Positions 43,731 to 59,319 of a stretch of 64,000 bases of DNA are shown piece after piece. Source of the stretch: Acidimicrobiia bacterium. GTDB lineage: Bacteria > Actinomycetota > Acidimicrobiia > Acidimicrobiales > AC-14. The stretch is taken from NCBI GenBank assembly GCA_023264995.1, contig JAHFUR010000010.1, positions 1 through 64,000 of the forward strand, in the 5' to 3' direction. The position numbers and the translations under genes are program-made. Below the pieces are notes generated by a model. That model did not search any database. It had not been told where the DNA came from and saw nothing but the letters and a program-made list of their open reading frames with translations. Each line of letters begins with the position of its first letter. The first letter of the stretch is position 1.

Positions 43731-45490
<1,760 letters not shown>

Positions 45491-45680
45491 TCATGACGTG
45501 GATCATTCCCCTGCCGGACCAACGAGTCATGCGTGCCCTTCCTGCGTAGCGGATCGCTCCACTCCGACTGGTCGGGCGGGTATTTGCTCTCGACGGTTCA
45601 ACGCAGAACAGGCCACGTCCGAGGGTACCCGTGAGGTCGCTCTCCGCGAACTGACGCATGCCATGCTCATGGGAGCGAAG

Positions 45681-45686
45681 TAGCAT
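45681..45686 (+). promoter_or_regulatory. Leaderless -10 box (TAGCAT) of the toxin-antitoxin pair
   Basis: TAGCAT is 6 nt before ATG 45693, with repeats of GTAT between (GCATGTATGTATG) that could serve as an antitoxin binding site. Confidence 0.45.
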
Positions 45687-45692
45687 GTATGT

Positions 45693-46007
45693 ATGACGCC
45701 TAGGGAACGACTGTCGGCGACGATCGAGTCAGACCTCCTGGAAGCCGGTCGCACGGCAGTGGCCGCTGGTCGGGCCGAGAGCCTGAGCGCATGGGTCAAC
45801 AGAGCCCTGCGGCGTCAAGCGGACCACGATCGACGGATGACTGCGCTGGACGAGTTCCTCGATGCCTACGAGGCCGAGAACGGCGTGATCAGCGACGAGG
45901 AGATCCGGGCGGCCACGCGTCGGGCTCGGGGGGCCGCCGTCGTGGTCCGCACGCCGGCGCGCGGACAGGACCGGGCAGCCGTGGGCGAAACTCCGGCGCA
46001 CCCGTGA
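45693..46007 (+). CDS. vapB: VapB-type ribbon-helix-helix antitoxin
   Basis: A 104-residue protein. The first 55 residues look like a ribbon-helix-helix DNA-binding region (RERLSATIESDLLEAGRTAV, SLSAWVNRALRRQADHD); the acidic tail (ALDEFLDAYEAENGVISDEE) would bind the toxin. The stop overlaps the GTG of the PIN-domain gene (GTGA). It should neutralise the toxin and repress the operon. Confidence 0.78.
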   Translation: MTPRERLSATIESDLLEAGRTAVAAGRAESLSAWVNRALRRQADHDRRMTALDEFLDAYEAENGVISDEEIRAATRRARGAAVVVRTPARGQDRAAVGETPAHP

Positions 46008-46384
46008 GCATCGTTCTCGACGCCGGCGCATTCATCGCGATCGAACGGGGCGACAGGGATCTGGTCGCAATCATCAAGCGGGAACGGCTCGCCGACCGGG
46101 CGCCCCTAAGCAGCGGGGGCGTCGTCGGACAGGTGTGGCGGGGTGGGCACGGTCGCCAGGCGAACCTTGCCCGCCTCTTGCCCGGCGTCGACGTTCGGCC
46201 CATTGACGAGGCCGTCGGTCGCAACATCGGGGTGCTGTTGGCGGCGGCGGGCCTCGACGACGTCGTTGATGCCGCTGTGGTCCTCCTCGCCGCCGACGGT
46301 GACGAGGTGTACACCGCCGATCCGGCCGACCTCGGCCCGCTCGCCACCGCCGCAGGACGGCACGTGGAACTCATCCGAGTGTGA
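46004..46384 (+). CDS. vapC: VapC-type PIN domain ribonuclease toxin
   Basis: A 126-residue PIN protein. Acidic active-site residues are in IVLDAGAFIAIERGDRD (Asp, Glu), LDDVVDAAVVLLAADGD and VYTADPADLGPLA (Asp). It would cut RNA, often tRNA, when released. Start GTG 46004 overlaps vapB. The pair opens the accessory region. Confidence 0.82.
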   Translation: MSIVLDAGAFIAIERGDRDLVAIIKRERLADRAPLSSGGVVGQVWRGGHGRQANLARLLPGVDVRPIDEAVGRNIGVLLAAAGLDDVVDAAVVLLAADGDEVYTADPADLGPLATAAGRHVELIRV

Positions 46385-46639
46385 TCGCGCCCACCTGGGT
46401 TTCATCCCATCGCCAAGCCCGAACTTCGCTTGGCCGGACCGGGCCTCAAAGACAGAGGGCCTTCGAGATCGAACTCGCCATCGTTGCCGAGCGTTATGGG
46501 CCGGGTTCGATCTAGAGAAGACCATTCCTACATCGGCACTTATGCCGGTGATCCTGTCAAGTAGTTGCGGGATATGCCGGTGATCGTAGGGTGCCGCCGG
46601 CCGGTGTGAACGTCCGGCCGACGGCAGTGTTGGCGGTGG

Positions 46640-46954
46640 TCAGGCGGTCCTGTTCGTAGTCCCGTTCCTCATGCGGGCGTAGGCGGCGAAGCGCCGGCGG
46701 GCGGTGGTGGTCGACGTGGCGAGACGCTGGGCGATGTCGTCCCAGGAGTAGCGCTGGGCCCGGGCGTCGGCGACGGCGTCGTGGAGACGGTCCTCGGCCT
46801 CGACTGCCAGGCTGACGAGGCACGACACCCTCGCCCCGGCATCGTCCGGACAGCCGTTGCGCCGCCGGACGAGCTCGGCCACCGCCGCGTCGACGATCGC
46901 GGTGGTGTCGCAGTCGGTGGCGGGGATGGCGGTGCGGTCGGCGTCGTGGTTCAT
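46640..46954 (-). CDS. Small helix-turn-helix protein, third gene of the recombinase operon
   Basis: A 104-residue protein. The C-terminal half has RYSWDDIAQRLATSTTTARR, a helix-turn-helix-like segment; the first half is an acidic helix (IVDAAVAELVRRRNGC). Its ATG overlaps the stop of the recombinase gene by 4 bp, and that gene in turn overlaps the next, so the three form one unit. In Tn554-like elements the third gene (tnpC) is also a small accessory protein; homology to it is not evident, and the analogy rests on position. Confidence 0.6.
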   Translation of the reverse strand: MNHDADRTAIPATDCDTTAIVDAAVAELVRRRNGCPDDAGARVSCLVSLAVEAEDRLHDAVADARAQRYSWDDIAQRLATSTTTARRRFAAYARMRNGTTNRTA

Positions 46955-48245
46955 GACGCCTCCTCCTCGCTCAGCGAGTCGGCCAGCCGCTGGTAGAGCT
47001 CGGCCCGGCCGGCCTGGTCGTGGGCGGCGGCGTCATCGGCCTGGCGCTGCAAGGTGGGCTTGAACTCGATGGTGGTGGCGAAGAACCCGCACCCTTCGCA
47101 GATGGTCTCGAAGGAGCAGTCCAGCTCGGCCGGCCGCCGGCACCAGCCGTTGCCCAGCATGCGGTGGTGCTCGGCCCGGACCCGGCGCATGGTCGGGCCC
47201 TCGACCTCGGCGCCGAGGTTGGCCGGCGCCGCGTAGAGGGCCTCGACCTTCTCGCTGACGGCGTGGTACTCATCCGTCACCGTCTGGTTGGCGATGCGGG
47301 CGTAGCGGATGGTCATGCGCAACGTGCGGTGGCCGAGGAGGGCGGCGATGGCCTCCAGGCGCATGCCCCGGTTGACGGCCTGGGTGGCCAGGGTGTGGCG
47401 CAGCTGGTGGGGATGGATGTGGCCGAGGCCAGCCCGGCGGGCCACCCGGTTGAGCATGCGGGTGACCGTGTGGCGGTCGATGGGCCGGCCCCCTCGGGTC
47501 AGCAGCAGCCCGGTGCCGTTGTCGTCGTGGCCGGCCACCCACGCCTCCAGCAGAGGCAGCAGCTGGGGGTGCAGGGGGACGTAGCGGTCGTTGTGGAGCT
47601 TGCCCAGCGGCACCCGCAACCACCAGCCCTCGCCGATGCGCACCACCGAATCGGCCTCCAGGGCGCACAGCTCGCCGACGCGCATCCCGGTGCGGCTGAG
47701 CACCTCCAGCACCAGGCGCCGCAGCGGGTCGGGCTCGGCGGCCACCTCCCGAGCCAGGCGCACGGCATCGGCGTCGTCCAGGAACTTGGGCAGGGGCTCG
47801 TCGGGACGGGGCAGGTCGGTGGCGAAGATGGGTTGCGGGCCGGGGCGTCGGGCCAGTCCCACTCGACGATGCGGTCGAAGAACGTCCGCAGCATCCCGAG
47901 GCGCTGGCGGCGGGTGTTGGGGCTGGGCGCCGTTCCCCGGGGCGTCATCCGGGCTCCCAGCCACGCCTTGAACCCCTCGACCTGGGGCCGGCCGACGGCG
48001 GCGAAGCAACGGGTGTCGGGGTGGCTGGCCAGCAGGTGGCGGCAGAACAGGCGCAGGTTGGAGTCGGCCACCACCACGCTGCCCGGGCGCAGCGACAGGG
48101 CGATCTGGTCCAGGTAGGCACCGGCGGTGTCGGCGAGGGTCGGTGCGACGTGGGCGATCTCGGCCCACTCCCGCTGCGAGGAGGACGGCAACAGCGAGGA
48201 GGACGGCGACCGCGTCGACGTGGCAGTGGCGGTGACCGCGGTCAT
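46951..48245 (-). pseudogene. Tyrosine recombinase (TnpB-like), single-base frameshift
   Basis: The protein is split between two frames. Residues from GTG/ATG 48245 run through the SAM-like core-binding domain (EIAHVAPTLADTAGAYLDQI ... MLRTFFDRIVEWDWPDAPAR) to NP near 47832; then the frame changes and the catalytic domain continues IFATDLPRPDEPLPKFLDDA. Catalytic residues are intact: SRTGMRVGEL, HPHQLRHTLATQAV, LLGHRTLRMTIRYARI. A C-terminal Cys-rich tail (CEGCGFFATTIEF) follows. The break is at GGG 47830-47832; one added C would restore a continuous 430-residue protein, so it may be an assembly error in a homopolymer. Confidence 0.8.
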
Positions 48246-48640
48246 CGGGCCACCGCGTCGGCGACGTCACGGCTGGCGTCGATGAGCTGGGCGGCCCGGT
48301 GGTACTCGGCAGCGAGCCAGTCGTTCGCCAGGTGCAGGTAGAGCCGGGTCGACTCGATGGAGCGGTGGCCGGCCTGGGCTTGCACCGCCTCCAGGGCCAT
48401 GCCTGCTTCCCGCAAGCGGGTCAGGCAGGTGTGGCGCAGGCCGTGGCAGCCGACGTTGGCCAGACCGGCCCGGCCCCGGGCGCCACGGATGATCTCGTCG
48501 AGCCCGTCCTCGCTGAGGGGCTGTCCCCGCCGTGGGCCCTTCATGGAACTCTGGCAGCGTCGCTCAAGTAGTTCGGTCATGGGCACTAACGACGAATTCC
48601 TATAGACCAGACCTCCGGATGAGCGTGTCGATACCTGCAT
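48242..48640 (-). pseudogene. Tyrosine recombinase (TnpA-like), C-terminal half only
   Basis: Only the end of a recombinase remains: MKGPRRGQPLSEDGLDEIIR, CHGLRHTCLTRLREAGMALE (H-x-x-R) and AGHRSIESTRLYLHL (His, Tyr). The core-binding domain and first catalytic Arg are missing. The recognisable part ends near 48545; the first 30 or so codons upstream (from ATG 48640) come from unrelated AT-richer DNA. It overlaps the next recombinase by 4 bp. The join marks where the AT-richer segment entered. Confidence 0.75.
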
Positions 48641-51398
48641 CTATCACTAAGGATAATAGCCGTTCTCCTCCACTACGGAGCCGGCCCAGCAGGCGACGAT
48701 CATCTCGACGGCTTGCCACGCGCTCAAGCTCTTGGCGGCTAATGTCGTCCCCGTCGGGGGACTGCATCGATCCCAGCACCGATGCCAAGTCAGGATCATC
48801 AACCAAAATGGATCGAACGGCGTGCAAAATCTGGAAGCTCTCCGTATCGAGATCCGCGGCTAGATCTGTATAACGTCCGTCGTCGATACGACCTCGGTCC
48901 CTCCTGCTTTTCAAATCTGTGAGTCGTCTGTCGATTGCGTGTAGTCGTGCCTGCGCATTTCGGAGTTCCAGAACCGTAGATTCTTCGTTCACGTCCACCA
49001 CTCCCCGATCTGACTCCGCGCCCGTAAGGACAGCGAGCGCCGACACTGGCACCAACCCAACGGGCAGCGCAACGGCGTGTACACCGGCAAGCGGTACACG
49101 GGCTCTGTCCAGTTCCCTGAGCCAGCCGGTGATGATTTCCACGCGCAATTCCAAACCATAGCGACGAAAAATTGCAAGGGCATCTCGCATCCGCTGACTA
49201 CAGGCGCGATAGCTTCCTTCATCACCCTTGCTCCGCCGCAGAATCACCGACTCGACCGTGGCTTCGTATTCGTACCTGCGAGCCAAGACGAAGTCTGCCC
49301 AGACAAATTCCTTTGCAAGCTGAAACGCCGACGCCGCACGCTCGAGCCTCTCCAAAGCGCTCTGAAGAGTCTCTACATCCAAGGCCGATCGGCGCTCGAT
49401 AGCATCGAGCACTAGCTCGCAGTCCATACAGCCTTCCGCGTATAGCTCAGCACCACTAGCAGCTTCGACCACGCGTGGTGGCATTGTCGCCAGGTCTTCT
49501 GACGAAATCGACCCGAAAATTACGGCCGCCGACTGATATTCCCTCGATGCTGCGAAATGCGACCTGAGAACTGCAAGACGCTCACCGCGAGCAAGATTCT
49601 GTTTGGCCCGTAGCTGACTAATGCGGGCCCGATTAAGTGCGCTGTCAGCGACTATTGACCGGGTACTGCGCTCCTGCGGTGTCAACCCAGAGCCCACATT
49701 CGATAATTCGACGGGGGAGCGGCCCACAGTAATCGACCTTGCTGTAGCTTGAGAGAGTCGCTCGCTCAGTGCGGCCTCGACCTCAAGAAGATGACCCGCC
49801 GCTTCCGACAGCAACTCCAAGGATTGTTCAGGATCCGGCTGCATGATGGCATAATCTGCCCGTGCGATCAATGCAGTCGCCGTCAGTTGGTGTGCGATCA
49901 TTACTCCAGCGCCAGAGTCCTCGCCTGATAACATGCCGGACAGCGCTGGCGCTAGAGCGATGACCATCACCTGCATTTTAGTAAGGACCCCGAGGCGTAG
50001 CTCCGCCGCTTTATCGAATGCCTGAGCAGCGGCCCGCAAGTCGCCTGCTCGCCTAGACAACTCTGCCAGCGCCTCAAGCTCAAGAAGTTCGCAGGTGTCC
50101 GCCATCATAGAAACACTTTTGGCTATGGCTTCCATGCGTCCAAGTAGAGGCTCTAGCTCGGCACGATCCTCGTCGCTACTAATATCATCGAGGAGAAGTC
50201 GTCCTTCTCGTAGATCGGACTCCAGTTGAGCTAATACGACTTCCTGAGCCTTTTCGGCCGCCTGCCGCGCCGTACAGGCAGCTCGGTGGGATTCTTCGAA
50301 ATCACCAGTAAGATTGGCCCAAATGGCTGGAAGTACCAACAACCCAGTGATTACCATTAAACGTTCCGCCGCATCGTCCAATAGAATTGCTCTAGCCAAG
50401 GATCCGTCGCAGCGGCGACGAGCTATGACCAATTCTGCTTCAAGCGTTGCATTGGAGGACCCCTCCACTACTCCGGAACGCATCAGTGCTGCTGCGGTCC
50501 GAAGAGAAAGGGCGTAAGTCCCCAGCATCAAAAGGCGACTGTTAGCGTCGACCGCCTGTTCCGTCCTGGCGACCGAAAAATCCAGCAACAAGAGGCGGTC
50601 GGTGGGACTTACTTCAGGCAGGAATGCGAATGCAGGGGCTATGGCGGCGGGGAGCAGCGCAACCCATGCATCGTCGTTCGACAATGAGTCCCATTCGCTG
50701 GCAGAGTGAAGGCGCTTAAACAAATCACCTAGGCCGTGATCCCAGTCTGGGATCTTAGACGTCGCAAGTAGTTCAGCGAACAAAGCGAAGCTGAGGAGGA
50801 CGTCCGAGGTGAATTCTTGTCCCCGACTTCCGAAATATGATGAGGCTGCCTTAAGTTGCATTTCAAGCGCCGCTGCGTCGCTTGGGCTTTCCATTATGTC
50901 CAGGTCAATATTAAGTGACAATAGGGCCGACGGAAGGGAAGTCAACAATCCTGAGTGCTGAAATCGCTCAAGGAAGGTCTCGATGTCCTCTGGTTCAAGG
51001 TCGAGTAGCGCACTGATTTCGTAGCTGTTTCGGTCCCATCCAACGGCCACGCTACCGCGCCTCGTCTCGGCGGCTTTTCGTATGAGTTCCAGCGCTGTAG
51101 ACTTTTCTGACCCCGTTACGAAAGCGTCATCGAGATAGATCATTGCTAGCTTTCCGGCCTCATCGTCAAAAGCCAGATGTTGAAGCAGACTCTCGGCTGC
51201 GGCCGAGAATCTCACCGAACTGTCTGCCTCAACGCTTGATGAGCTGCTCGATGAGTTGTCCAACTGACTTAGGAGCGCCCGGACGACTGCATGATCGATC
51301 ACGTTAGAGAGGAGATAATCCGTCGTCCATATGTGATTAGAGCCTAAGACCTTGGTGGCATAGTCTTCCGTGCGCCGAAGAGCCGTCGTTCCGTCCAC
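48600..51398 (-). CDS. Large orphan protein with helical repeats, AT-richer DNA
   Basis: A 932-residue protein on visibly AT-richer DNA with many codons rare in the neighbours (ATT, TCT, AGT, CTA). No named domain is recognised. It is nearly all helical: a seven-Ser run at residues 49-55, a TPR-like segment around 430-470 (LLELEALAELSRRAGDLRAA then AQAFDKAAELRL), further long helices, and a C-terminal coiled coil near 815-850 with a SHOCT-like piece (DLKSRRDRGRIDDGRYTDLA). There is no signal peptide or membrane helix, and no nuclease, ATPase or protease motif was found. GTG 51398 has a TAGACT box 6 nt upstream. It stands alone, with a gap of 800 bp to the methylation cassette. Confidence 0.7.
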   Translation of the reverse strand: MDGTTALRRTEDYATKVLGSNHIWTTDYLLSNVIDHAVVRALLSQLDNSSSSSSSVEADSSVRFSAAAESLLQHLAFDDEAGKLAMIYLDDAFVTGSEKSTALELIRKAAETRRGSVAVGWDRNSYEISALLDLEPEDIETFLERFQHSGLLTSLPSALLSLNIDLDIMESPSDAAALEMQLKAASSYFGSRGQEFTSDVLLSFALFAELLATSKIPDWDHGLGDLFKRLHSASEWDSLSNDDAWVALLPAAIAPAFAFLPEVSPTDRLLLLDFSVARTEQAVDANSRLLMLGTYALSLRTAAALMRSGVVEGSSNATLEAELVIARRRCDGSLARAILLDDAAERLMVITGLLVLPAIWANLTGDFEESHRAACTARQAAEKAQEVVLAQLESDLREGRLLLDDISSDEDRAELEPLLGRMEAIAKSVSMMADTCELLELEALAELSRRAGDLRAAAQAFDKAAELRLGVLTKMQVMVIALAPALSGMLSGEDSGAGVMIAHQLTATALIARADYAIMQPDPEQSLELLSEAAGHLLEVEAALSERLSQATARSITVGRSPVELSNVGSGLTPQERSTRSIVADSALNRARISQLRAKQNLARGERLAVLRSHFAASREYQSAAVIFGSISSEDLATMPPRVVEAASGAELYAEGCMDCELVLDAIERRSALDVETLQSALERLERAASAFQLAKEFVWADFVLARRYEYEATVESVILRRSKGDEGSYRACSQRMRDALAIFRRYGLELRVEIITGWLRELDRARVPLAGVHAVALPVGLVPVSALAVLTGAESDRGVVDVNEESTVLELRNAQARLHAIDRRLTDLKSRRDRGRIDDGRYTDLAADLDTESFQILHAVRSILVDDPDLASVLGSMQSPDGDDISRQELERVASRRDDRRLLGRLRSGGERLLSLVIDAGIDTLIRRSGL

Positions 51399-51404
51399 GG
51401 ACTC

Positions 51405-51410
51405 AGTCTA
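51405..51410 (-). promoter_or_regulatory. Leaderless -10 box (TAGACT) of the orphan gene
   Basis: TAGACT on the minus strand is 6 nt before the GTG start at 51398. The same arrangement as host genes, although the coding DNA looks foreign. Confidence 0.5.
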
Positions 51411-52199
51411 GTGCTATTTCGCGAACCCTTCCAGTGGCTGGTGACCGGCCCCGAAAAGCATCTCCGTCGGGCTCCTGGTGGAAGACCAAGCGCGAACGGG
51501 AGCCGATGATTAGCGGTCCCATGTCAGGTTGGCTGTCGGCGCATGTGAGGGCGGGCGTCATGCGGGAGCATAGGTACACGCTTGCGTAGGTGGATGCGCG
51601 CACGGCACCGATTGAGCGGCTCTACGGGCTGCCGTGGTCGCCTCAACCTGGCGATGTGATCGGAAAGGACCTTCCGTCCTCTGCGAAACCGGGCGTGGGG
51701 AGGGCAGCAACCGGGCAATTCCGGATGCCGTCGTTTCGGTCGAGAGTGAACCGCCGCTGTTTATTGAGCTCGCGACGTGTGCCGTACGCAGGCAGCCCTC
51801 CTTCTCGGGGGCCGAGGTGCTCCGCATCGCTCCCAGCCCGACCGTTTCCGGATGCCAGTCGGGCCGGGTCGGCCCCCATGGTGCCACTGCGCGCGTTACC
51901 GAGCGCGAGGTAAGTGCCCTTATACAGGGCAGTCCGACTGCCGACGCCCTGGGGCGGTGCGGCTGGTCGGCCGGACGTCGTTATGTCGCGCGGCTTCGTT
52001 TGCCCGCCGAGGCTGCGTTCTCGGTACTCGGCTAGAGCCCGACGGCGCTCAGCGACTTGGGCTAGGAGTGGTTCGGTACACTTCCGGTGTGGCCACTTGT
52101 CCTGGAGCGGTCAGCGCCACCTACCGTGTCTCAGACCTACGCATGAGTGACGTCCCAACCACGCAGGGTACGGCGTGACAGCGTCTCGGGTGACGGGTC
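51411..52199. other. Gene-free stretch between orphan gene and Vsr-type gene
   Basis: About 790 bp on which I can support no gene. Several short open frames of 60-133 codons overlap on both strands, none with a recognisable protein pattern or consistent codon use. It may hold decayed sequence or the promoter region of the four-gene cassette. Confidence 0.5.
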
Positions 52200-52661
52200 A
52201 TGGAGACTAGGACCTCGGGGTCGGAGGCCTTGCGAGTCATCACGTCGGCCAAGGTGTCGGCGCGAATGTCGCGCGTGCCACGCCGCGGTACCTTGCCCGA
52301 GCTTGCAATTCGGCGACGGCTGCATAGCCGGGGCTTGCGATACCGGGTCGATGCGCGGCCAGAACCCTCAATCCGGCGCAGGGGGGACATCGTGTTTTGG
52401 CGTGAACGGGTCGCAGTCTTCATAGACGGCTGCTACTGGCACGGGTGTCCCGAGCACTGCCGCCTGTCGGGGGCAAATCTGGCTTGGTGGGAAAGCAAGA
52501 TCGCCGAGAATCGGGCGCGAGATCGCGATACTGACGCCCAGCTGCAGGCCGCCGGCTGGGTGGTAGTCCGCTCGTGGTCGCACGAAGGCCCCGACGCCGT
52601 TGCGGCGAAGGTCGAAACCCTGGTGCGGCGTCGCCGCGGATCGCTCTCGGCGGACGACTAG
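52200..52661 (+). CDS. vsr: Vsr-type (very short patch repair) endonuclease
   Basis: A 153-residue protein of the Vsr fold: RMSRVPRRGTLPELAIRRRL and GLRYRVDARPEPSIRRRGDI with the catalytic Asp, then VAVFIDGCYWHGCPEHCRLS with the zinc/His site, ANLAWWESKIAENRARDRDT and AAGWVVVRSWSHEG. Classical Vsr nicks T:G mismatches left by deamination of 5-methylcytosine. It stands immediately before a cytosine-5 methyltransferase (40 bp gap), the usual pairing. In this cassette no other nuclease is present, so it may instead be the cutting subunit. Confidence 0.88.
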   Translation: METRTSGSEALRVITSAKVSARMSRVPRRGTLPELAIRRRLHSRGLRYRVDARPEPSIRRRGDIVFWRERVAVFIDGCYWHGCPEHCRLSGANLAWWESKIAENRARDRDTDAQLQAAGWVVVRSWSHEGPDAVAAKVETLVRRRRGSLSADD

Positions 52662-52701
52662 CCTGGCCCCCCAGGGACGACCGGACGGCGCGGGAAGGAA
52701 G

Positions 52702-54012
52702 ATGGCTAAGCGACAGGCGCACGGAGCGGTGGCCGCGCCGCGACGCCCAGTGGCCGTCGACCTGTTTGCCGGTGCAGGGGGAATGTCGCTCGGTTTCGAG
52801 CAGGCCGGCTTCGACGTACTGGCATCCGTCGACAACGATCCAGTGCACCTCGCCGTACATGAGCGCAACTTTCCGAACTCATTCGCGTTGTGTCACGACG
52901 TTGGGGCCGTAACCGCCGAAACACTCCACGCCGCGGTCGGCAAGGGCTGGTCATTGACAAAGCGAGAGGGTGAGTGGGACGGCGTCGTCGACTGTCTGTT
53001 CGGAGGACCGAGCTGTCAAGGATTCTCAGACATGGGCCGCCAGAACCCCGACGACGACCGCAACAACCTCGTCTTTGCATTCGCTCGCGTAGCCCGCGAA
53101 CTCAAGCCGCGTTCCTTCGTCATCGAGAACGTTCCCGGGTTGCTGTTTCCGAAGGTCCGTGATCACCTTAATCGCCTGCTCGCGGAATTAATAGACGCAG
53201 GATATCGCCTCGTCGACGAGCTGCCTTTCCTGCTCGACGCATCCGAGTATGGCGTGCCGCAAAAGCGAAAGCGGGTGTTCATCGTCGGCGTCTTGGACGG
53301 AGTCGATCTTCCGCGTCGTCCCGAGGCCACCTGCTCGCCGACCATCGCCGAAGCACTCGATGACCTTCCTGCGATCGAGGATCTCGACGAACTGCTCACG
53401 TCGGATCGCCTTTACATGTCGGCCGCGATGCTCGAGCGGATGGCGGCCTTGGCATCCGCCTACGCTACTTCCCTCCGAACCCGACACGGGCTCGAATATG
53501 AGCGGCGGTGGCCCGATTCGATCCTGACCGGAAGCCAGCGGACCGTGCATCAGCCGTCTGTCGTTGAACGCTTCCTAAGCTTGACTCCAGGTTCTTCCGA
53601 CACCGTAAGCCGGACCCACCGCCTCGATGGCGATAGATACTCGCCCACTCTGCGAGCAGGGACTGGACGCGACCACGGAAGCTTCACCGCCCCGCGGCCG
53701 ATCCATCACCGCCTCCCACGGGTAATCACCGTCCGCGAGGCGGCGCGGCTTCACACGTTCCCCGACTGGTTCTCGTTCAACACGGCCAAGTGGCACGCGC
53801 TTCGTGAAATCGGCAACGCGGTTCCGCCGCGGCTGGCGGCAGCTGTCGCAGGCACCGTCATCCAGGCCCTCGGAGCCGGACGCAGCCTGCCCACCCGAGT
53901 GATCGAGCCCGGTCCGGACGAACTCCTCGAGCACTCGCTCGGAACTGCTGCCGACCACTTCGGCATTGATCGGGCGTCTCTGATTCCGGACGTCCGCCGA
54001 GGCCGAAGCTAG
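52702..54012 (+). CDS. dcm: DNA (cytosine-5) methyltransferase
   Basis: A 436-residue C5 methyltransferase. Motif I is VAVDLFAGAGGMSLGFEQAG, motif IV GGPSCQGFSDMGRQNPDDDR with the catalytic Cys, motif VI SFVIENVPGLL, motif VIII YGVPQKRKRVFIVGV, and motifs IX-X VITVREAARLHTFPDWFSF and REIGNAVPPRLAAAVAGTVI. It methylates cytosine in a specific duplex sequence that cannot be predicted from here. ATG 52702 follows GGGAAGG. The gene lies between the Vsr gene and the GHKL ATPase in one transcription direction. Confidence 0.94.
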   Translation: MAKRQAHGAVAAPRRPVAVDLFAGAGGMSLGFEQAGFDVLASVDNDPVHLAVHERNFPNSFALCHDVGAVTAETLHAAVGKGWSLTKREGEWDGVVDCLFGGPSCQGFSDMGRQNPDDDRNNLVFAFARVARELKPRSFVIENVPGLLFPKVRDHLNRLLAELIDAGYRLVDELPFLLDASEYGVPQKRKRVFIVGVLDGVDLPRRPEATCSPTIAEALDDLPAIEDLDELLTSDRLYMSAAMLERMAALASAYATSLRTRHGLEYERRWPDSILTGSQRTVHQPSVVERFLSLTPGSSDTVSRTHRLDGDRYSPTLRAGTGRDHGSFTAPRPIHHRLPRVITVREAARLHTFPDWFSFNTAKWHALREIGNAVPPRLAAAVAGTVIQALGAGRSLPTRVIEPGPDELLEHSLGTAADHFGIDRASLIPDVRRGRS

Positions 54013-54048
54013 CGTGCACACGCTCACCGCTGATATCGGGAGGAACGG

Positions 54049-55446
54049 ATGCCGCCAAAGCAACAGCTGAGCGACGATCTGACCGTCGACGCGGAGCCTG
54101 AACGAGCGCTCTTTGTCGAGATGCTCACACGCGACATCGACTTGATTCCAGCGATCATGGACCTGCTGGACAACAGCATCGACGGCGCACGGGCACAGAT
54201 CAACGACCACACTCCCGCTACCGACTTCACGGTTGCGCTCAAGGTGTCGGCCGATCACTTCGAGATTCGAGACAACTGCGGAGGGATCGAGCTCGACGTA
54301 GCGCGTCAGTACGCCTTTCGGTTCGGACGACCCCGCAACTACAAGGGCACCACACGCTCCGTCGGCCAGTTCGGCGTCGGTATGAAGCGAGCGCTGTTCA
54401 AGCTTGGCAGGGTCTTCTCCATCAATTCTCGAGCTGCAACCACCTCTTTCGAAATGACCGTAGACGTCAAGGAATGGATGGCGGACACCAACCCTGTGTG
54501 GACGTTTACGATGTCGAAAGCGAGTCGCGACTACAACTCGGCCAAGCATGGTCGCGGAACCACGATCACGGTGACGCAGCTGCACGAGGCCGTGCGAGAA
54601 GACCTCGCCGACGGCGGATTCCTGTCGCTCCTGAGGGAACAGATCAGATTCCGTCATCAGGGCGCTCTCGCGGAGGGCATCACAGTCATGCTCAACGGCG
54701 AACACCTCGATCACTTCAGCAGGGAGCTGTTGAGCGGACCTGGCTTCAAGCCGATCAACCGGACCTTCGTCGTGTCCTCGGAGCACGGGGACGTCGCGGT
54801 CAGAATCATCGCCGGGATTACGAGGCTCGAACGTAAGGACGTGGGGAAGGACGACGGAGATGCCGAAAGCTTCCGTTCCGGCACCGACGCTGGTTGGTGG
54901 ATCTTCTGCAACGATCGACTGCTGCTGATGCGCGAGCGGACGCGCCTGACGGGCTGGGGCGACTCCTTACCGAACTACCACCCCCAGTACCGACAGTTCC
55001 GAGGCTACGCGTACCTCAACGCCACGTCGACAGCCGCCCTGCCGTGGAACACGACAAAGACCGGCGTCGACGAGGAGTCGCGGGTCTGGCGCCAAGTCCA
55101 AGCGCAAATCAAGGTCGCTGGCGCCCAGGTCGTGGCCGTGCTCAATCGCCTGAAGATCGAGGAGCAGACATCGGTTAACGACGACGATAGGCCGACCGTG
55201 AACGCAGCGGCAGCCGCCGCATTGGTGCCGACGGACGAACTGGAGCTGAGCGAATCGTTCGCGGCCCCGCCGCCGCGGAAGCCGCAGAGCAAGTCCGCTC
55301 CACGGAAGCCTCGGGTGCAGAAGATGCAGTTTGAGGTGCCCATGAACCGCTTCAAGGTCGTGTCGGCACAGCTTGGCACCTCCGTCGTCGCCGAGGTTGG
55401 ACGACGGACCTTCGACTACTACTACGAGCGCGAGATCGAGGACTGA
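54049..55446 (+). CDS. GHKL ATPase (MutL/MORC-like) of the methylation cassette
   Basis: A 465-residue protein with a Bergerat ATP site: N box IPAIMDLLDNSIDGARAQI (Glu replaced by Asp, Asn kept), G1 FEIRDNCGGIELDVA, and G2 SVGQFGVGMKRALFKLG. An S5-like second domain follows (GWWIFCNDRLLLMRERTRLT, YLNATSTAALPWNTTKTGVD), then a Pro/Lys linker and a C-terminal 50 residues. Bacterial MutL/MORC-related ATPases are known in restriction-modification operons next to C5 methylases. A GGGAGGA sequence precedes ATG 54049. It could gate DNA in an ATP-driven way for the nuclease. Confidence 0.85.
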   Translation: MPPKQQLSDDLTVDAEPERALFVEMLTRDIDLIPAIMDLLDNSIDGARAQINDHTPATDFTVALKVSADHFEIRDNCGGIELDVARQYAFRFGRPRNYKGTTRSVGQFGVGMKRALFKLGRVFSINSRAATTSFEMTVDVKEWMADTNPVWTFTMSKASRDYNSAKHGRGTTITVTQLHEAVREDLADGGFLSLLREQIRFRHQGALAEGITVMLNGEHLDHFSRELLSGPGFKPINRTFVVSSEHGDVAVRIIAGITRLERKDVGKDDGDAESFRSGTDAGWWIFCNDRLLLMRERTRLTGWGDSLPNYHPQYRQFRGYAYLNATSTAALPWNTTKTGVDEESRVWRQVQAQIKVAGAQVVAVLNRLKIEEQTSVNDDDRPTVNAAAAAALVPTDELELSESFAAPPPRKPQSKSAPRKPRVQKMQFEVPMNRFKVVSAQLGTSVVAEVGRRTFDYYYEREIED

Positions 55447-55449
55447 GCG

Positions 55450-56340
55450 ATGGGCGTTCTCGATTATGCCGACCGCCAGTCGAAGCACATCTTGCGTCGA
55501 ATCTTCGTCGAAGTGCTTCGCCGACTGCAGACTATTGATGCGCTGTCCAACTACTCTTATATAGGATTCGGTGCCTACCAGTTCATCGACTTCGACCTTG
55601 TGCATCGTTCGCTGGGGATCGAGCGAATGACGAGCATCGAAAGCGACGACGCGTTGATCGAACGATGCCGCTTCAACTCGCCCTATCGCGGTATCGACAT
55701 CTTGGAGGGCACGGCAGCGACCGTTCTGCCGACGCTCGACTGGTCGGGCAGGTGCATCGTTTGGCTCGACTACACTCAGCGGCTCCGCACCGAGGAGATG
55801 GCCGACGTCCAGAACGTCGCGTTACGCCTACAACCAGGTAGCGTGCTCGCTATCACGCTCAACTGCCATCCCGGAGCCGATAACAAGCGACGCGGCGATC
55901 TGGAGTCCGCCGTCGGTGCCGAGAACGTTCCGATCGGGATCAGCGAGGCCAAGCTCGGAGACTGGGGCCTCGCGAAGACCCAACGAGAGCTGACGACGGC
56001 CTTGTTGCACCGGACGTTCGCTGATCGTGGTGACGGAACGGGCTGGCAACAGCTCCTGAACATCTACTACCGCGACGGGGCGCGCATGCAGATGACCGCG
56101 GGCGTCGTCGACGACCCACAGCTTCACCCGGCGATCCAGGCATGCCGATTCGAGGACATGACAGAGGTGTCCTTCGACGCCGAGCCCGTCGTGATCGAAG
56201 TTCCCGGCCTCACCGTTCGGGAGCGTCAGGCGCTCGGGAAGAAGCTCCCTACTCGCTCGTTCAAAGAGTTCGCCGGCCTGCCGGCTTCGGCTGTCGAGGC
56301 GCACGCGCGGTTCTACCGATGGCTGGATGCCGTCGGATAG
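55450..56340 (+). CDS. SAM-methyltransferase-like protein of the defence cassette
   Basis: A 296-residue protein starting 3 bp after the GHKL stop. The first 130 residues look like a Rossmann methyltransferase: YSYIGFGAYQFIDFDLVHRS, LGIERMTSIESDD and CIVWLDYTQRLRTEEMADVQ (acidic strand). Conserved pieces such as IGFG, DF-H and SIE are those of a family annotated loosely as O-methyltransferase in defence regions. The second half is helical. Whether it still methylates, and what, cannot be said. It closes the four-gene cassette; 88 bp later the ISL3 remnant begins. Confidence 0.65.
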   Translation: MGVLDYADRQSKHILRRIFVEVLRRLQTIDALSNYSYIGFGAYQFIDFDLVHRSLGIERMTSIESDDALIERCRFNSPYRGIDILEGTAATVLPTLDWSGRCIVWLDYTQRLRTEEMADVQNVALRLQPGSVLAITLNCHPGADNKRRGDLESAVGAENVPIGISEAKLGDWGLAKTQRELTTALLHRTFADRGDGTGWQQLLNIYYRDGARMQMTAGVVDDPQLHPAIQACRFEDMTEVSFDAEPVVIEVPGLTVRERQALGKKLPTRSFKEFAGLPASAVEAHARFYRWLDAVG

Positions 56341-56427
56341 ACCGGCTGGGGTGGGCAGATAAGAAGCCGCTCGAGCACCCCTGGATTGAGGTCGAGCCTA
56401 AGGACGTGTGTTTGTTTTTCCTAATCT

Positions 56428-57070
56428 GGGTCTTCGCGAATGGGGGTTGGAAGTTGGTGGGTTGACGCGCTGAGGGTCCGTGATGGAAGCGGGCCTGGCT
56501 TCCAGACTTCGGCTTGGCCGAGCCGAAGAGGAGCCAGACCCCGTGGCCGACCGTATCTCGTTGCGCTTGCGCCGCAACGACATAAGCGTGTTCGGGACCA
56601 TCGACGAGCCGAGCCAGCGGCCTATCGTGCACGTGGCCGGCAAGTTCGCCGCCGCCCTGTGCCCGAGCTGTGAACGACCGTCGGTCACGACCAATGGCAC
56701 GGGCTGGCGCGACGTCATCGACGTCGTACGCACCCTGGTCGTCAGCTTGGCGGTGTGCGTGCGGCGGTTCATCCGCGAGGACGAGGACTGCCCCCAGCGC
56801 AGCTTCGACGAGCGCTTCGAGGGCATCGGCCGGGGCGGGCTCGCTCCCGCGCCCAGGCGTTCTTCGCCGACCTCTCACGGGGCCGGGCGACGCGGGCGGT
56901 GGCCCGGGACATGGACGTGCCCGAGCACTATCTGCGCCTCGCCGTGGGCGCCCAGCGCCGGCGGGCCCATGAGTTTGTCCGGGGCCGGCTGGGGCGCAGG
57001 CCATCGACGAGTGCAGCGTAAAGAAGAACTTCGTCTAGGCCACGGTGTTCAGCGACCCCGGCCGGGCGTG
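56428..57070 (+). pseudogene. ISL3 family transposase, decayed remnant
   Basis: The pieces read in order but in three frames. The N-terminal zinc-finger part is VHVAGKFAAALCPSCERPSV then VVSLAVCVRRFIREDEDCPQ, RSFDERFEGIG. After a shift near 56835 come FFADLSRGRATRAVARDMDV and RRAHEFVRGRLG; after another near 56995 comes AIDECSVKKNFV, then an in-frame TAG (57036-57038), then ATVFSDPGR. The rest of the DDE domain is gone. GGGTCTTCGCGAATGG at 56428-56443 may be the left inverted-repeat end. The right end is not seen. Confidence 0.7.
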
Positions 57071-57249
57071 GTCATCGGGACGCGAGGCGGGCCGCCTGAT
57101 AGCCGGCGAATTCGTGCGGCCATCGCGCCCGGTAACGGGTTGCGAGCCCTCTCCTCTGGTGTGCTGCGGCGACTAGGTCGGTACGATTTCGGCCACCGAC
57201 CCTCGCCTCGGCGACACGGGTCGAGGTCGAGAGAAAGGGGGGCGTGCCG

Positions 57250-58356
57250 GTGGCACACGTCGAGAAGCGAGGTCCGGGGCGATGGCGCGCCCGGTACCGG
57301 AACCCGAACAACCGGGAGCGGTCGAGGACGTTCGCCCGGCGGGTCGATGCCGAGCGGTGGCTGACCTCGGTCGAGCACGCCAAGCTGTCGGGCGCCTATA
57401 TCGACCCGGCGATGGCCCGGGTCACGTTCGGGCGGTGGGCGGAGGAGTGGCTGGCCACGCCCGGCAAGCGGCCGAGCGCGTGGGCCCGGGACGACTCCAT
57501 CCTGCGGAACCACCTGCTCCCGACGCTCGGCGACCGCGGGTTGGGCACGATCAAGCCAAACGATGTCCAAGCGCTCGTGAGCGGCTGGACCACCGACGCA
57601 GCGCCGCGCACCGTGCGTCGGCAGTACGACACGCTGCGGGCCATCCTCAACGCCGCAGTCGCGGCCGACCTCATCGCCCGCTCGCCGTGTCGGGGCATCC
57701 GGCTGCCCGGGGTGTCCCAGGCCACCAGCCACGTCGTGAATGCCGAGGAGCTGGCTGCGATCGCCAGCGCCATGGGCGACTACGCGCCCATGGCGTACCT
57801 CGGCGCCGTCCTGGGCCTCCGGTGGGGCGAGTGCGCCGGCCTCCGGGTCGGCCGGATCGACTTCCTCCGGTCGACCCTGCACGTGGCCGAACAGCTGACG
57901 CGAGGGCCACGAGGCGCGATGGTCCTGGGACCGCCAAAGTCGGAGGCCGGACGGCGCACCATGGCGGTCCCACCGGCCCTCACAGCCCTCCTGAGCGAGC
58001 ATCTGGCCTCCCGAGGCATCACCGGGGCCGACCCGGACGCGTTCGCCTTTCCCGCCCCGCAGGGCGGCCATCTCGACTACGCCCACTGGCGCCGGCGGGT
58101 CTGGGAGCCGGCGGCCGCCGCCGGAGGCCTGGCTGGGCTGGCGTTCCGGGACCTCCGCAGGGCCAACGCCACCGGCATGGTCCTCGACGGGATCGACCTG
58201 AAAACCGCGCAAACCAGGCTCGGCCATAGCGACCCGAGGCTGACTTTGGCGGTCTACGCGCAGGCCACGACGGCCGCCGACGCGGCCGCAGCGACCGCCC
58301 TCGGGACGCGGTTCATGGAATTCCCGCGGCCTAGCCGCGGCCTGGGGGCCTCCTGA
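57250..58356 (+). CDS. Tyrosine-type site-specific integrase
   Basis: About 368 residues in phage/ICE style. N-terminal AP2-like arm-binding segment (VEKRGPGRWRARYRNPNNRE), core-binding domain (VTFGRWAEEWLATPGKRPSA), and catalytic domain with AVLGLRWGECAGLRVGRIDF (Arg I) and RLGHSDPRLTLAVYAQAT (His III and Tyr). The box II His-x-x-Arg reads FRDLRRANATG, with Arg instead of His. GTG 57244 is also possible, but GTG 57250 is better spaced from AAAGGGGGG. It lies 48 bp from tRNA-Pro, the expected place for an integrase using that tRNA. Confidence 0.88.
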   Translation: MAHVEKRGPGRWRARYRNPNNRERSRTFARRVDAERWLTSVEHAKLSGAYIDPAMARVTFGRWAEEWLATPGKRPSAWARDDSILRNHLLPTLGDRGLGTIKPNDVQALVSGWTTDAAPRTVRRQYDTLRAILNAAVAADLIARSPCRGIRLPGVSQATSHVVNAEELAAIASAMGDYAPMAYLGAVLGLRWGECAGLRVGRIDFLRSTLHVAEQLTRGPRGAMVLGPPKSEAGRRTMAVPPALTALLSEHLASRGITGADPDAFAFPAPQGGHLDYAHWRRRVWEPAAAAGGLAGLAFRDLRRANATGMVLDGIDLKTAQTRLGHSDPRLTLAVYAQATTAADAAAATALGTRFMEFPRPSRGLGAS

Positions 58357-58369
58357 GCCACCCGCCGGC

Positions 58370-58398
58370 CAGGGCGAAAACGCCCTGACCTGCTCTTT
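58370..58398 (+). terminator. Intrinsic terminator of the integrase gene
   Basis: A perfect 7-bp stem (CAGGGCG/CGCCCTG, 58370-58376 and 58381-58387) with an AAAA loop, followed by a T-rich stretch (CTCTTTTCCTT). It lies between integrase and tRNA. Confidence 0.75.
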
Positions 58399-58404
58399 TC
58401 CTTG

Positions 58405-58478
58405 TCGGGAAGGCGGGACTTGAACCCGCGGCCTCAGCGTCCCGAACGCTGCGCGCTACCAAGCTGCGCCACTTCCCG
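58405..58478 (-). tRNA. tRNA-Pro (anticodon CGG)
   Basis: 74 nt without CCA. Acceptor stem CGGGAAG/CTTCCCG with discriminator A (58405), D arm with AGCTTGGTAGC, anticodon stem-loop GCGTTCGGGACGC with CGG, T arm GCGGGTTCAAGTCCCGC. All four stems pair. The CCA end is not encoded. Its 3' end faces the integrase gene, so the tRNA is the probable attachment site of the island. Confidence 0.95.
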
Positions 58479-58494
58479 GAAAACCCAGCCTACT

Positions 58495-58911
58495 TCAGTG
58501 CAGCGGCACCGTGACCGGGCGGTAGGCGTCGTCCTCGAACGTGCCGCCGGCGAGGAGGGCGGTGATTGCCCGGCCGAGGCGCATGGGGTCGAGGGGCTTG
58601 ACCACCCAGCCCTCGGCCTCGGAGCGCCGGGCGAGGAAGACGTCGGCCCGGCGGTCGAGCAGCATGAGGATGGGGACGTGCGGGAGGCGGCCGGCTCCCT
58701 GCTCCAAGTGGAGCTCCGAGCAGGTGGCCATGGCCCCCATGCGGCCGATCTGCTGGTCGAGCACGACCAGGTCGGGCCTGCGGACCTTGACCGCCGGCCC
58801 CACGTCGGCCCCGTGGTTCATCTCCCGCACGGTGATACCCGTGTCGGGCAGGGCGGCCATGACGGCTTCCCGGACATTTGACGAGTCGCTGACCACGAGC
58901 ACCTCGGGCAT
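58495..58911 (-). CDS. Response-regulator receiver domain protein
   Basis: A 138-residue single receiver domain. The acidic start is VLVVSDSSNVREAVMAALPD, the phospho-Asp lies in RPDLVVLDQQIGRMGAMATC, and the Lys in WVVKPLDPMRLG. There is no output domain, so it works through protein contact. A divergent STAS-domain gene starts 42 bp away, a pairing seen in stress or switch pathways. The gene is co-oriented with tRNA-Pro downstream. Confidence 0.8.
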   Translation of the reverse strand: MPEVLVVSDSSNVREAVMAALPDTGITVREMNHGADVGPAVKVRRPDLVVLDQQIGRMGAMATCSELHLEQGAGRLPHVPILMLLDRRADVFLARRSEAEGWVVKPLDPMRLGRAITALLAGGTFEDDAYRPVTVPLH

Positions 58912-58941
58912 CTCGTGAGGGTAGTGCCCGCGACCCGTGGG

Positions 58942-58947
58942 TAGCAT
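58942..58947 (+). promoter_or_regulatory. Leaderless -10 box (TAGCAT)
   Basis: TAGCAT is 6 nt before GTG 58954, which has no Shine-Dalgarno sequence. Confidence 0.5.
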
Positions 58948-58953
58948 CGAGCC

Positions 58954-59319
58954 GTGCTTCACATCGAGCTGGACAAGCGTGAGGACTACACCATCTGCCG
59001 GCCCGTGGGGGAGCTGGACGCCTATACCGTCGGCCAGTTCCGCGAAGCGCTCGGCGAGCTGGCGTCTGAGCCCAAGCTCCTCATCGACATGTCCGATGTC
59101 CCGTTCGTCGATTCCGCCGGCCTGGGCGCGCTCATCGGGGGCATCCGCCGGGCCCGGGAGGCGGGGGGCGACGTTGCCGTGTGCTGCAACCGCCCCACCC
59201 TGGTCCGCCTCCTCCACACCACCGGCTTCGACCGGATCGTGACCGTCACCGACACCGTGGCCGAGGCGGCGGCCTCGCTGACGAGTGAGGACGGTCAGTC
59301 GGCGGAGGCGAACACGTAG
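58954..59319 (+). CDS. STAS domain anti-sigma factor antagonist
   Basis: A 121-residue single STAS protein. It shows YTICRPVGELDAYTVGQFRE, then KLLIDMSDVPFVDSAGLGAL with the phosphorylatable Ser in D-S-A-G, and VRLLHTTGFDRIVTVTDT. Such proteins bind an anti-sigma kinase and free a sigma factor when dephosphorylated. No cognate kinase or sigma factor is nearby. Its end overlaps the ArsA-type gene on the other strand by 25 bp. Confidence 0.88.
   Translation: MLHIELDKREDYTICRPVGELDAYTVGQFREALGELASEPKLLIDMSDVPFVDSAGLGALIGGIRRAREAGGDVAVCCNRPTLVRLLHTTGFDRIVTVTDTVAEAAASLTSEDGQSAEANT

Follow-up and report, generated by a model that had tools for sequence, protein, structure and literature searches.

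A long ORFan of foreign composition in a tRNA-Pro-linked mosaic island of an Acidimicrobiia bacterium

The window analysed here, a stretch of 64,000 nucleotides, carries at 48600–51398 of the reverse strand a gene for a 932-residue protein (hereafter, the orphan), which had been described from the letters as a foreign-looking gene placed directly between a broken recombinase and a defence-like cassette. The question raised by this locus is whether the orphan is a working part of its neighbourhood or cargo in its own right. The answer proposed below, to which we give about an even chance, is that the orphan is acquired ORFan island cargo, separate from the cassette, with a mostly helical product that is likely a scaffold or sensor binding a partner protein.

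Frame and composition of the orphan gene

The GTG codon is the first possible start of the orphan, since a TAG closes the frame 12 bases upstream of it. When the orphan DNA was resampled 1000 times (first order), the longest open frame did not exceed 324 codons, so the intact frame of 932 codons, as originally reported, is far beyond chance; the remaining five frames over this region contained 26–48 stops each. The arrangement TAGACT-GAGTCC-GTG around the start fits, by eye, the leaderless type of start suggested earlier, but the DNA at this start was not among the listed matches of a sigma-70-type promoter scan.

The G+C content of the orphan was 0.561 (0.655/0.463/0.564 at the three codon positions) against approximately 72% in the neighbourhood, and its third-position value of 0.564 compared with 0.803–0.989 in 30 window frames, a set picked for values >0.8. 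With 20 host genes of the window as the reference, the CAI of the orphan was 0.195 versus 0.647–0.851, which places the orphan clearly apart; on the same reference, the cassette genes scored 0.359–0.453, and the integrase of the island scored 0.611. Codons rare in the 20 host genes (<0.3%) accounted for 30.8% of the codons in the orphan, compared with 3.5% in the host set. The AT-richer DNA and rare codons pointed out in the initial annotation were thus confirmed, and the low CAI and G+C content indicate that the orphan is foreign in composition, more so than the cassette.

The step in G+C content is abrupt (approximately 48560–48600), as could also be produced by an assembly or contamination artefact that had put foreign DNA into the contig, and the lack of relatives of the orphan would agree with such an origin. 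However, genus-like DNA lies on both sides within one contig, and the contamination of the genome was scored at 0.69%; an artefact is considered highly improbable.

Relatives and predicted build of the product

No significant family was found for the orphan in Pfam, PADLOC, NCBIfam, or PHROGs. The comparison with PADLOC yielded zero families; YfdX (E 0.62) and phrog_17045 (E 0.52) were insignificant, and the PDB sequence matches (E 0.043 over the Ser-rich stretch and E 0.63) were set aside. The statement that the protein has no recognised domain therefore held in all of these collections. At E 0.1, tblastn with the orphan returned nothing from collections of plasmids (72,556 records) and phages (50,697 records), and genome and viral contigs scanned for its peptides, a method sensitive to close relatives only, showed no relative.

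Genome searches were performed with draws of 1, 396, 10, 397, 389, 30, and 355 genomes, and in these 1578 overlapping look-ups, the true match of the orphan was in its own genome only, with at most two candidates per genome scored in the large draws, so weak relatives could escape. As a control, the neighbouring ATPase was used as the query in 396 genomes, its own included, and recovered a 41% relative (E 9.5e-96) together with four weak ones. Marginal orphan matches appeared in five other genomes, in one of them twice (E 4.8e-5 to 9.4e-4). All five were inspected and judged to be due to chance or generic: those at L002, L003, and L161 lie in frames antisense to longer plausible genes, that at L014 falls in a frame resembling a P450 by eye, and that at L015, which spans orphan residues 438–471, belongs to a frame TPR-like by eye. 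Within the family, the orphan was absent in 9/9 other genomes searched.

Leu and Ala together make up 28.6% of the orphan residues, and the Ser run mentioned earlier is indeed present as seven Ser codons (residues 49–55; 51234–51254, reverse strand). The structure prediction, made without relatives, gave an all-helical model of the whole chain with a mean pLDDT of 41.8, while residues 325–770 modelled alone reached a pLDDT of 62.0 and a pTM of 0.30. A Foldseek search with the model gave nothing below E 1.1. VIA returned three-helix bundles and TPR pieces with Z of 8.4–11.9, lower than the level of ~13 given for helical models, among which such scores are common; its rows to TPR proteins involved fragment residues ~374–446, that is, orphan residues ~698–770. 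The Foldseek and VIA rows were not taken as identification of the fold; the structure prediction provided only helices. Judging from this low-confidence model, a mostly helical build of the product is probable.

The TPR-like stretch of the initial annotation exists as a signal at residues 438–471 (49986–50087, reverse strand), where a consensus scan gave a score of 12 (best score of the shuffled sequences, 9.6 ± 4.9), but it is below the threshold: TPR_2, the one such match, covered residues 441–467 with E = 2.8 and 8.8 bits, the cut-off being 27, and no TPR unit exceeded the family cut-off. The consensus scan also scored 21 at residues 83–116, a value attained in 2.6% of the shuffles. The C-terminal coiled coil also stood in part, as a charged helix is predicted at residues 806–834 (48897–48983, reverse strand) in the low-confidence model, but the crude heptad score of the orphan peaks at ~407–442, away from the C terminus. 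Two hydrophobic segments (residues 347–365 and 773–791) scored between clear membrane proteins and most other window proteins. The second (49026–49082, reverse strand) is the most hydrophobic of the protein (KD 2.11), contains proline, and may be a membrane or buried segment; given the two segments, a membrane-associated product is possible.

Taken together, the orphan product would most likely be a scaffold or sensor built of helical repeats, with the weakly TPR-like middle of the chain as the putative contact site for a partner protein. The helical-repeat build put forward in the initial annotation is plausible, but the model behind it is of low confidence, and the TPR signals are sub-threshold.

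The island and the neighbouring cassette

A tRNA-Pro (CGG) gene (58404–58478, reverse strand) marks the start of the flank that is syntenic in relatives, and it is adjoined by an intact-looking tyrosine integrase (57244–58356, forward strand). The main matches of the family relatives at this site start at window 58345–58404 or within the flank and extend to the right, none of them across the orphan; the right flank is syntenic in relatives, and the orphan is missing in the nine family genomes. The tRNA-Pro (CGG) was present at the boundary in 3/3 relatives examined, and relative G397 has a short integrase-like remnant at the same tRNA. No convincing pair of att repeats was detected around the island, and the tRNA end matched weakly at other sites of the genome, so the right edge alone of the island is placed. 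A search of 44000–59000 with Rfam gave no family besides the tRNA. By eye, a likely toxin–antitoxin pair lies at 45693–46384 and a likely transposase remnant at 56480–57364; Pfam gave no confirmation of either.

The broken recombinase on the left of the orphan is, as had been described, a C-terminal remnant of a tyrosine recombinase comprising its last ~100 residues (48260–48559, reverse strand), and its first ~262 residues were not found anywhere in the window. A second tyrosine recombinase (46972–48137, reverse strand) is also broken, since it was matched in two different frames (47751–48137 and 46972–47844). The possibility that the orphan had inserted into this recombinase was also tested: the N-terminal part is located neither across the orphan nor elsewhere in the window, so a simple interruption is unsupported. 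In the same-genus relative G398, two loci (L036 4788–7114 and L037 4021–6839) carry tyrosine recombinases in pairs that are relatives of the two broken ones in the window.

Owing to the alien composition, the absence in nine family genomes, and the location in a tRNA-Pro-linked variable region, the horizontal acquisition proposed in the initial annotation is well supported, and the orphan is, as far as these three lines reach, a real ORFan carried in a recently acquired, strain-specific mosaic island by the tRNA-Pro (CGG). With two adjacent recombinases both broken and no relative keeping the gene, the orphan could also be a decaying passenger of an earlier element, of no use to the host; the 932-codon frame is still intact, however, and this explanation appears unlikely.

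On the right, the neighbouring genes correspond to what had been called a defence-like cassette: on the forward strand, a Vsr-type endonuclease (52200–52661), a C5 cytosine DNA methyltransferase (52600–54012), a GHKL (MORC/MutL-like) ATPase, weakly MzaB-like (54049–55446), and a Methyltransf_35 protein (55450–56340). This cassette is transcribed divergently from the orphan at a distance of approximately 800 bases, so the placement directly between the two neighbours applies on the left side but not on the right. A literature search for PF20553 found no paper that mentions the term.

Desertimonas flava (L041 8130–12292) carries the cassette at 80.5% DNA identity over 4130 columns, corresponding to window 52242–56345, and the orphan is missing there. 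The sharp edges of this similarity, at the Vsr start and at the Methyltransf_35 end, suggest that the cassette moved alone. Downstream of it, at L041 13968–15245, a caspase-like plus kinase-like frame was seen by eye.

The ATPase-alignment scan supplied 120 loci, namely 80 genome loci (the best of 181) and the complete set of 40 viral loci, taken with flanks of up to 10 kb, which are incomplete for several loci because these are short contigs. With this proviso on the flanks, a tblastn search revealed an orphan relative at E <1 in 0/120 loci (best, 3.9), and the best phmmer result at those loci was E 0.27. A Methyltransf_35 relative accompanied the ATPase at 79 of the best 80 genome loci (out of 181) and at 40/40 viral loci, so that these two genes form an almost fixed pair in this set. 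In the same two sets (best 80 of 181 genome loci; 40 viral loci), the methylase was found at 58/80 and 40/40 loci, Vsr at 37/80 and 2/40, and all four cassette genes at 36/80 and 2/40, respectively. The same ATPase/methyltransferase pair is present with a cytosine methylase and Vsr on the Microvirga terrae plasmid pR24_2 (L011 10007–12421), where the surrounding genes carry annotations as DISARM drmD, drmA, and drmC and an MmeI-type enzyme.

The varying gene content around such ATPases, and the location of the orphan on the other strand, approximately 800 bases upstream of Vsr, would allow it to be a working part of the cassette that is read divergently, e.g., a restriction effector or a specificity or control subunit. 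Against this, the D. flava cassette exists without the orphan, none of the 120 ATPase loci (some with incomplete flanks) has a relative of it, and the orphan and the cassette are unlike in composition and codon use. Membership in the cassette is disfavoured on the first two grounds, and we consider it quite unlikely. Since the composition differs and cassettes exist without the orphan, the two probably arrived separately, and we favour a helical scaffold or sensor that was acquired independently over a cassette component.

Participation of the orphan in phage defence is possible, as a guess from its neighbourhood. The defence or host-range role of the initial annotation gained nothing beyond this position, and the nearest relative of the cassette, in D. 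flava, lacks the orphan. A stand-alone defence or conflict gene, with sensor and effector in one chain and present in the same island by chance, would agree with the integrase-linked island, the adjoining cassette of restriction–modification type, and the alien composition. At the same time, the orphan has no PADLOC or Pfam domain, and simple motif scans found no R-x4-H, R-x5-H, Walker A, or HxH, with three R-x6-H; this alternative seems rather unlikely. Very doubtful is the broader proposal that the orphan is the founding member of a new family in the defence islands of high-G+C bacteria, made up of large helical sensors or scaffolds of one chain, in which the repeats would sense the invader and the charged C-terminal part would act. 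If functional in defence, the orphan would extend the known range of island cargo by a protein that has no described domain. More generally, it is a clean case of a long intact ORFan beside a defence cassette, in which the position is misleading because the cassette travels without the orphan.

Comparison with known systems

Restriction–modification neighbourhoods in which MORC and paraMORC ATPases adjoin cytosine methylases and Vsr-type nucleases, a minority of them without helicases, are described in an earlier study (Iyer, Abhiman, Aravind 2008, PMC2292703), and related neighbourhoods appear in a 2021 paper (PMC8011034). The GHKL ATPase, cytosine methylase, and Vsr of the window cassette are alike to those outlined there (PMC2292703), the ATPase being likened to MORC/paraMORC as a whole group and to no single family. 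Unlike the components of these neighbourhoods, the orphan was found in none of the loci examined. The cassette ATPase also weakly matched the Mza ATPase MzaB (PADLOC PDLC02204 and NCBIfam NF041932; 5.3e-7 and 2.8e-7), but its 29.3 bits compare with a cut-off of 850 in NCBIfam, and no other Mza model was among the matches listed for the scanned proteins.

ORFan cargo of tRNA-integrated islands is characterized by alien composition, an integrase beside the tRNA, and absence in close relatives. The orphan shares all three traits, although it gives the impression of being rather long for an ORFan; it is an ORFan in an already known kind of island.
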